Positions 30,380-32,162 of a stretch of 38,291 nt of DNA are shown here, piece after piece. Each line of letters starts with the position of its first letter. The first letter of the stretch is position 1. The stretch comes from Bacillota bacterium (GTDB taxonomy: Bacteria > Bacillota > Sulfobacillia > JAJZYS01 > JAJYTV01): the NCBI GenBank assembly GCA_021793645.1, contig JAJYSJ010000022.1, forward strand, positions 1 to 38,291. Direction: 5' to 3'. The notes under the pieces were generated by a model. The model saw nothing but the letters and a program-made list of their open reading frames with translations. It did no database searches and was not told the DNA's origin. Both the position numbers and the translations under genes were made by a program.

Positions 30380-30817
30380 TTATAAGGCCCCTGCTCCGCC
30401 TCGCCCGTGGCCTCCGCGGTGCGTGTCGTGGTGGCGGCGCAGGTCCGCCTGCTTGTCCTCGCTGTCCTTCATGAACCGGGCCAGCTTGTCTTCGAAGTTC
30501 TGCGGGCGCCCGGGACTGCGGCGTCCGCCCATGGGGGGCCGTCCCTCACTGCGGCGCGGACCGGCGGCAGCACCGGGTTGTGCTTGGCGGATCGAAAGTC
30601 CGATCTTCTGGTTGCCGTCGAAGGACAGGATCTTGACCTTGACCTTGTCCTGCTCCTTCAGGAAGTCCTTGATGTCGTTCACGTAAGCATCCGCAACCTC
30701 GGAAATGTGAACAAGCCCGGTCTTGCCAGAAGGCAGCAGCACGAACGCTCCGAAGCGCGTGATGCCAGTCACAACACCCTCTACCACGGCACCGACCACG
30801 ATCTCTGTATCCGCCAA
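30380..30817 (-). CDS. yabR: S1-domain RNA-binding protein (YabR-like)
   Basis: This 145-residue protein has one S1 domain (about 5-78: VGAVVEGVVTGITRFGAFVL, then GLVHISEVADAYV, and VKVKILSFDGNQKIGLSIR) and a low-complexity Gly/Arg/Pro/His tail. In Bacillus the equivalent yabR follows divIC. Related proteins (general stress protein 13, CvfD) bind ribosomes or mRNA. A TTG start follows GGGAG. Last gene of the cluster. Confidence 0.88.
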   Translation of the reverse strand: MADTEIVVGAVVEGVVTGITRFGAFVLLPSGKTGLVHISEVADAYVNDIKDFLKEQDKVKVKILSFDGNQKIGLSIRQAQPGAAAGPRRSEGRPPMGGRRSPGRPQNFEDKLARFMKDSEDKQADLRRHHDTHRGGHGRGGAGAL

Positions 30818-30913: not shown

Positions 30914-31297
30914 CTAGGGAACCGTATGAATGACCAGCGGCGTCGTGCCCGCAGGGGCATAGTGCAGTTCACTGCGTACGGCGGCCGCCTGGCCAGCGCT
31001 CGACTGCAGGTAGTGCAACTCTTTGGAGAGCACCGCATTCTGCGCATTCGTGTGTGAGAGCTGCTCCGTGATGACATGCTCATCGGCCTGCACGTGCAGC
31101 AGCTGCAGCTCTCCGATGGCGCCGGCTCCGATCAGGTAGAGGACGACGCCTGCGAACATCATGCGGCCGAACCGAAGCTTTAGCCGCCTGCGCCGCTTGC
31201 TGGGCGCTGGCGCTCCGTCCCGCCGGACCGGCGTTGGGCGCTGGGGAGCGGGTGAACGCAGAGCTGCCAGCCCGATCGCATCAGCTGCCTTCGTCAA
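30914..31297 (-). CDS. divIC: Septum formation initiator, DivIC/FtsB family
   Basis: This bitopic membrane protein of about 127 residues has a basic cytoplasmic N-terminus (SKRRRRLKLRFGR), one transmembrane segment (MFAGVVLYLIGAGAIGELQL) and an extracellular coiled coil (ITEQLSHTNAQNAVLSKELH). It should join FtsL and DivIB in the divisome. The C-terminal part lacks the strong E-x-x-A-R pattern of typical FtsB, so it is somewhat divergent. The TTG at 31297 is placed by AGGAGG; its 5' end overlaps the HTH gene by 17 bp, indicating coupling. Confidence 0.85.
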   Translation of the reverse strand: MTKAADAIGLAALRSPAPQRPTPVRRDGAPAPSKRRRRLKLRFGRMMFAGVVLYLIGAGAIGELQLLHVQADEHVITEQLSHTNAQNAVLSKELHYLQSSAGQAAAVRSELHYAPAGTTPLVIHTVP

Positions 31298-31523
31298 TCT
31301 CTTCCTCCTCCTCTCCAACGGCCAAGGCGAGCGGATCTCCGTCGATTACGATGACGACCTGGTATCCCTTCTGCTTTGCGCGGTGCAATAGCGTAGCGAC
31401 GCTGGACTCGCTCAGCTTGAGCTGACGAGCGATCGCGTCGAGCCGCACTCCTGTTTCCTTCAGCGTCACCGTCTGGCGCTCGCGAAAGCTAAGCCGCTCC
31501 GCGCCGCGGATCTCGATATGCAC
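31281..31523 (-). CDS. Small sigma-region-4-like HTH protein
   Basis: This 80-residue protein has a helix-turn-helix like sigma-70 region 4 or LuxR (LSFRERQTVTLKETGVRLDA, then IARQLKLSESSVATLLHRAK), followed by a hydrophobic strand (YQVVIVIDGD) and an acidic tail with six Glu or Asp. It may be a transcriptional regulator rather than a sigma factor, since region 2 is absent. GTG 31523 has GGAGG with 7 nt spacing. It lies between yabQ and divIC, where Bacillus has no such gene, and is preceded by DnaA-box-like repeats. Confidence 0.75.
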   Translation of the reverse strand: MHIEIRGAERLSFRERQTVTLKETGVRLDAIARQLKLSESSVATLLHRAKQKGYQVVIVIDGDPLALAVGEEEEEIDEGS

Positions 31524-31542
31524 CGCGCCGCCTCCGCAAGGT

Positions 31543-31574
31543 TTGTCCACAATTTGTCCACAGTTTGTGGATTA
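31543..31574. promoter_or_regulatory. Cluster of DnaA-box-like sites
   Basis: TTGTCCACA occurs at 31543-31551 and again at 31554-31562, and TGTGGATTA (reverse TAATCCACA) at 31566-31574. The first is the high-GC form of the DnaA box; all three match TTRTCCACA in eight or nine positions. The two direct copies are 11 bp apart, about one helical turn. They fill the 62-bp gap between yabQ and the HTH gene. Confidence 0.6.
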
Positions 31575-31584
31575 TTTGTCCTCG

Positions 31585-31896
31585 CTAGGTTCTACGCCGC
31601 TTGCGGGATTCCTGCCACGGCATACGAAGCAGCCCGAGCAGGGCTAGAGCAAGCCCGCATCCGGCTGCGAACCCCACGAACACGTAGGCACGCAGGTCGC
31701 CCAGCGTGCCAATCAGCAGCGCAGCCCCTCCCGCCACGCTCAAGATAAGCAGCAGCGCCGCTTCAAGCAGCATGCGCCACAGTCTGCGGCGGCCGCCGAG
31801 CAGAGCGATCAGCTTCCAGGCGGGTACGACGAGCATGCCGACGAGAGCAGCGAACAGCATGCGGTCAATCTGCTCCAGAATTGGCAGGTCGATCAT
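31585..31896 (-). CDS. yabQ: Spore cortex protein YabQ
   Basis: This 103-residue polytopic membrane protein has three to four hydrophobic helices (MLFAALVGMLVVPAWKLIAL, MLLEAALLLILSVAGGAALLI, YVFVGFAAGCGLALALLGLL) and a basic tail. Position after yabP and before divIC matches Bacillus, where YabQ is made in the mother cell and needed for cortex formation. It overlaps yabP by 4 bp (ATGA). Confidence 0.78.
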   Translation of the reverse strand: MIDLPILEQIDRMLFAALVGMLVVPAWKLIALLGGRRRLWRMLLEAALLLILSVAGGAALLIGTLGDLRAYVFVGFAAGCGLALALLGLLRMPWQESRKRRRT

Positions 31897-32162
31897 TTGA
31901 GCAGTCTCCGCCAGGCGCCCTTGCGCTTGGTCTCCGCCACGTAGAGCAGCGCACCCACATCGCCGTCCAGGACGAGATCGCCCTGTTCAAGATCCAGGTG
32001 CCGTATGTGCAGGTTCTCGCCACGGACCGTCAGCATGCCGAGGTGGGTAATCAGCACGATCTCGCGATCATCGAACGACTCCACTTTGGCAACGCCGGTC
32101 ATGGAGAGCAGGCTGCGGTCCACGAGCTCCAGGCCGTGGTGCTTCTTGGGCGCGTCTGGCAC
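31893..32162 (-). CDS. yabP: Sporulation protein YabP
   Basis: This 89-residue soluble protein has the YabP/YqfC-like pattern LELVDRSLLSMTGVAKVESF, then DREIVLITHLGMLTVRGENL and HIRHLDLEQGDLVLDG. In Bacillus yabP is a mother-cell sporulation gene transcribed with yabQ. The GTG at 32162 has GGAGGTGG upstream. The minus-strand CATAGCAT near 32185 is a partial match to a sigma-E -10 box, not enough to claim a promoter. Confidence 0.85.
   Translation of the reverse strand: MPDAPKKHHGLELVDRSLLSMTGVAKVESFDDREIVLITHLGMLTVRGENLHIRHLDLEQGDLVLDGDVGALLYVAETKRKGAWRRLLK

Follow-up and report, generated by a model that had tools for sequence, protein, structure and literature searches.

A small gene encoding an HTH protein lies between yabQ and divIC in many non-Bacillus lineages of the Bacillota, and it is preceded by a tandem array of 11-bp TTGT units that is conserved, and absent, together with it, and in about half of the regions by a sigma-H-like promoter. 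We propose, with a probability of about 0.5, that the array is an operator with DnaA boxes embedded in its units in most lineages, and that the HTH protein would bind it cooperatively along a single DNA face, exerting negative feedback on an HTH–divIC operon.

The HTH–divIC locus in the window

The window, the whole 38,291-nucleotide stretch of DNA that was analyzed, contains the following features at this locus:

30380..30817, minus strand: S1-domain gene (yabR-like), last gene of the conserved block (profile match, synteny)
30914..31318, minus strand: divIC-like gene, directly 3′ of the HTH gene and overlapping its end (ORF list, profile match)
31281..31523, minus strand: HTH gene, 80 aa, sigma-region-4/LuxR-like, with a GTG start at 31523 and its stop at 31281-31283
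31531..31535, minus strand: Shine-Dalgarno GGAGG, 7 nt 5′ of the HTH-gene GTG (sequence)
31542..31585, plus strand: tandem array of four 11-bp units, TTTGTCCACAA, TTTGTCCACAG, TTTGTGGATTA and TTTGTCCTCGC (sequence, pattern search, orthologous arrays, phase statistics)
31585..31896, minus strand: yabQ, the 5′ neighbour, whose 3′ end holds the promoter and whose stop abuts the array (TIGR02893, below cut-off)
31589..31613, minus strand: sigma-H-like promoter AGGAATCCCGCAAGCGGCGTAGAAC, with −35 AGGA at 31610-31613 and −10 GAAC at 31589-31592, within the 3′ end of yabQ
31893..32162, minus strand: yabP (TIGR02892, above cut-off)

The first-pass annotation had reported a box cluster upstream of the HTH gene, consisting of two TTGTCCACA repeats in helical phase and an inverted TAATCCACA. 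These sites are exact: TTGTCCACA occurs on the plus strand at 31543-31551 and 31554-31562, and TGTGGATTA, which is TAATCCACA on the minus strand, at 31566-31574. The three DnaA boxes are real and coincide with units 1–3 of the array; what had been missed was a fourth unit, the common 11-bp register of all four, and the promoter. Four TTTGT cores recur in 11-bp steps over 31542-31579 with no mismatch, and the same pattern found no match in shuffled sequence with three mismatches permitted. Across the whole window, single near-boxes are no rarer than chance (4 versus 4.35 expected). Chance occurrence of the boxes was ruled out by the phase statistics, the pattern search against shuffles and the region counts given below. 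In the order to which the window belongs, array and gene have opposite orientations, the TTTGT core lying on the strand opposite the gene, a point against the operator reading. A comparison of the leader with Rfam matched no known RNA element.

The gene order yabP–yabQ–HTH–divIC–S1 is conserved in non-Bacillus lineages of the phylum, with divIC immediately 3′ of the HTH gene at 73/80 loci, and the gene neighborhood places the operon within a sporulation cluster. In the window the HTH gene overlaps divIC, as had been noted, when the divIC ORF is counted from its first listed start.

An old member of the cluster

The HTH gene product had been described as an 80-residue, sigma-region-4-like protein, and our analysis bears this out: translation from the GTG at 31523, served by the GGAGG, gives 80 aa that match Sigma70_r4_2 (PF08281) with E 1.5e-6 and 28.2 bits, above the curated cut-off of 25.7. 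Profile searches identified sigma region 4 as the closest relationship. Sigma-70 region 2, the part responsible for core binding and promoter melting, is absent from the 80-aa protein, which holds the HTH core and two strands only. The AF2 model (pLDDT 85.7) predicts two strands flanking three helices (E2-6, H13-23, H28-34, H39-51 and E55-59). Foldseek matched VpsT, DesR and GerE through the HTH core only, with weak E-values, and returned no full-length structural match. Along the sequence, the protein is laid out as EIRG(A)E(R/K)LSFRERQVV.LKE, the HTH, RA(K/R).KGYQVVIV..GDPL and an acidic tail.

Among close relatives, the gene showed a dN of 0.03-0.07 against a dS of 0.65-0.80 (dN/dS about 0.03-0.09), indicating that it is real and constrained. 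It was present in 54/61 relatives sampled across the class, mostly as one match and at 53–94% identity; its absence from one of them, G009, reflects a contig end only, the array of that genome lying at base 69 of the contig. A phylum-wide sample of 398 genomes gave at least 150 matches at E ≤2e-26, and carriers by name include Moorella, Pelotomaculum, Desulforamulus, Thermincola, Sulfobacillus and Fermentithermobacillus. The gene had initially been taken as inserted before divIC; the conserved order instead identifies it as an old member of the cluster, ancestral in these lineages, and synteny together with near-universal conservation ruled out insertion of a foreign gene.

In families f28 and f39 of the class, the HTH gene was not found in 8/8 genomes searched, and yabP was confirmed in both genomes examined for it (G038 and G057), a pattern that suggests clean lineage losses. 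In G035 (L250, about 2370-2590; G035:C1:3441361-3441590), the HTH gene is interrupted by a single-base frame shift at about residue 24, and a five-unit array is retained despite the split; three relatives (G459, G474 and G487) carry an intact gene. The open-access papers searched yielded no publication on an HTH gene in the yabQ–divIC gap and no description of the protein family, its array or their placement at divIC, all of which seem undescribed.

The array and promoter across genomes

With regions more than 70% alike removed, and with array and box counts that otherwise ignore shared ancestry, the 11-bp period recurred throughout the upstream regions: in 76 nonredundant regions, TGT pairs numbered 188 at a lag of 11 (3.8 in shuffles), 132 at 22, 76 at 33 and 31 at 44, and at least three uninterrupted units were found in 77/112 regions, compared with 1/2240 shuffles. 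The units form a gradient, from TTGTACTAA or TTGTAGTNN at the outermost position through TTGTCCACA or TTGTACACA at the next to TTGTGGATAAC at the gene-proximal position, where the unit is usually TTATCCACA inverted, a canonical DnaA box. Among nine family members, the array and promoter appeared as invariant blocks amid diverged sequence. In L100 (upstream of 10001) and in G183, drift has turned the array into near-perfect TTGGGATAAGC repeats with the 11-bp period kept; taken as a co-variation test, L100 showed unchanged oriC boxes and an unchanged recognition helix.

The sigma-H consensus is AGGAWWT-N12-14-HGAAT, with which the putative promoter agrees, the match in the window being a relaxed form (AGGAATC..GAAC). 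Among the 112 regions, AGGA-N17-GAAT/C or near forms were present in 61 (5.6 expected) and the strict form in 24 (0.85 expected), and the promoter spanned a fixed 25 bp in 51/62 matches. Its −10 element mostly ends no more than ~30 bp 5′ of the first detected unit, often 5–17 bp, so that the array would sit at and just after the transcription start, a position suited to repression. In some lineages, including those with Sulfobacillus-type loci (L070, L076, L084 and similar), TATAAT stands in place of the sigma-H-like promoter, about as far from the array.

Genome-wide scans, which were pattern searches with two different array patterns, returned matches almost confined to the HTH locus with both patterns; the others fell in oriC of Thermaerobacter-type genomes and at a few single sites. 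A wider regulon sharing the array was rejected, the candidates being scattered single matches only (RecD2-like, thiolase, beta-lactamase-fold and CYTH neighbors). At G030:C58:40554-40583 (L247), a three-unit array of the same type lies immediately 5′ of a RecD2-like helicase ORF.

In 12 genomes that carry yabP and lack the HTH gene, neither an array nor a box was found within ~1.4 kb 3′ of yabP, a stretch inside which divIC was identified in 7/12. The array is therefore present with the HTH gene and absent from the yabP locus of HTH-less genomes, the distribution predicted for an autoregulated HTH operon. Since nothing of the array is left at the yabP locus of these genomes, or before divIC where divIC was located, it probably acts for the HTH gene or for the operon that holds this gene, not for divIC as such.

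Candidate readers of the array

From these patterns, we infer that the region is the promoter–operator of a conserved HTH–divIC operon. Transcription from the sigma-H-type promoter at the yabQ 3′ end would run towards the HTH gene, and its first ~45 bp would be made up of TTGT units in helical phase, spaced by one DNA turn, on which HTH molecules would most likely sit side by side along one DNA face. Units occupied at the transcription start would repress the protein's own promoter, and this repression would cap HTH and DivIC output after sigma-H switches the operon on, thereby setting the DivIC level. Binding by the HTH protein would account for the fixed 11-bp register of the array, for its association with the HTH gene and for its near-absence elsewhere in the genome, array matches found almost only at the HTH locus being what a self-operator would give. 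Sigma region 4 reads the −35 element, which makes it plausible that a sigma-region-4-like fold reads the TTGT core. DnaA, too, is probably able to bind the array, since in most lineages the inner units are DnaA boxes as well, and it might compete there, either adding repression or relieving that exerted by the HTH protein. An extended version, in which the HTH protein forms a one-per-turn filament on the phased array and competes with DnaA for control over the DivIC synthesis that sigma-H drives, so that replication state would be tied to the sporulation septum across the phylum, is speculative, and we consider it unlikely.

Alternatively, DnaA itself may be the main reader, a possibility that we hold only tentatively. 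The strong gene-adjacent box would nucleate ATP-DnaA, which would spread over the weaker boxes with their 2-bp spacers, and HTH–divIC would be repressed or activated, tying replication initiation to early-sporulation division in a manner similar in kind to B. subtilis sda. Perfect TTRTNCACA boxes occur in 91/112 upstream regions compared with 2.5% of shuffles, so that matches to TTATNCACA exceed the chance level; together with the inverted TTATCCACA that usually forms the last unit, this makes DnaA hard to dismiss. The oriC of the window's own genus also uses TTGTCCACA, and B. subtilis DnaA binds cooperatively at other loci and regulates genes including sda and ywlC (PMC4447404).

However, the DnaA box is not the conserved element in every lineage: 21/112 regions lack a perfect box, yet at least three TTGT units are retained in about 13 of these. 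Box-less arrays occur at L252, L269, L271, L280, L285, L095 and L122, and oriC carries normal TTAT boxes in those of the genomes that were examined, G238 and the genome of L122 among them. Moreover, the array boxes differ from the oriC boxes of the same genomes in both spacing and sequence. Same-orientation near-boxes are spaced by 11 bp in 142 cases and by 12 bp in 12 within arrays, compared with 17 and 26 cases, respectively, at oriC, and direct boxes favor G at position 3 in arrays (TTGT:TTAT, 85:18) but not at oriC (6:48; Fisher 9e-19); inverted boxes showed no difference in position-3 preference between array and oriC. The array was also not found where the HTH gene is missing, yet DnaA is universal. 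At G435:C1:2478702 and G182:C1:1284171 (L315 and L316), far from oriC, a DnaA C-terminal domain occurs in a second protein of shorter length.

The first-pass annotation had suggested that DnaA could couple replication initiation to expression of a division gene, and had named conservation of the boxes and the HTH gene in related genomes as one check. Both are kept together across the phylum, which makes such coupling possible. The part of the proposal that rests on conserved boxes thus stands, whereas the element that is conserved is the strict 11-bp TTGT array, and the box-less lineages and the differences from oriC render DnaA less likely as the sole reader.

A reader of another kind, such as a regulator of sporulation, is improbable: the sigma-H-type promoter and the location in a sporulation cluster would suit one, but TTGTNNNNA shows no match to the Spo0A box, TTTGTCGAA, and the array and the HTH gene go missing together. 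Least credible of all is an origin-proximal cluster that titrates DnaA and plays no regulatory role on the operon, as the locus lies ~64-230 kb from dnaA in closed chromosomes but offers only 3–5 units, bound to one gene and its promoter and gone when the HTH gene is gone.

Coupling among replication, division and sporulation has been studied almost only in Bacillus subtilis. An operator read by the HTH protein would make this locus a compact control module at divIC, common to many other spore formers and not known from B. subtilis, for which a conserved candidate regulator, a probable operator and a promoter class can now be named. The exact 11-bp array would also offer a clear model of cooperative same-face binding.

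Phased-operator repressors, DnaA-controlled genes and sigma-H promoters are all already known kinds of element, and the locus can be set against several systems. Its order matches the Bacillus yabP–yabQ–divIC–yabR cluster except for the HTH gene, which sits with the array between yabQ and divIC; we know of no HTH gene at this position in Bacillus. The protein shares the tri-helical HTH with stand-alone sigma-70 region 4 and GerE (LuxR-type) proteins but differs from them in its two flanking beta strands, its conserved EIRG...KGYQVVIV.GDPL frame and its acidic tail. At oriC of E. coli, low-affinity DnaA sites are arrayed beside one strong box, and the array described here likewise has weak sites in tandem, closely and evenly spaced, with a strong one flanking them on one side; unlike E. 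coli oriC, it is no origin, and spacings of 11 and 12 bp are about equally common among the oriC boxes of these genomes. Finally, the DnaA-box-regulated Bacillus genes sda, ywlC and ywcI, with their box clusters, likewise place several DnaA-type boxes at the promoter of a small regulatory gene in a sporulation context, whereas the array here is distinguished by its rigid 11-bp register, its TTGT core, its box-less lineages and its location at HTH–divIC.
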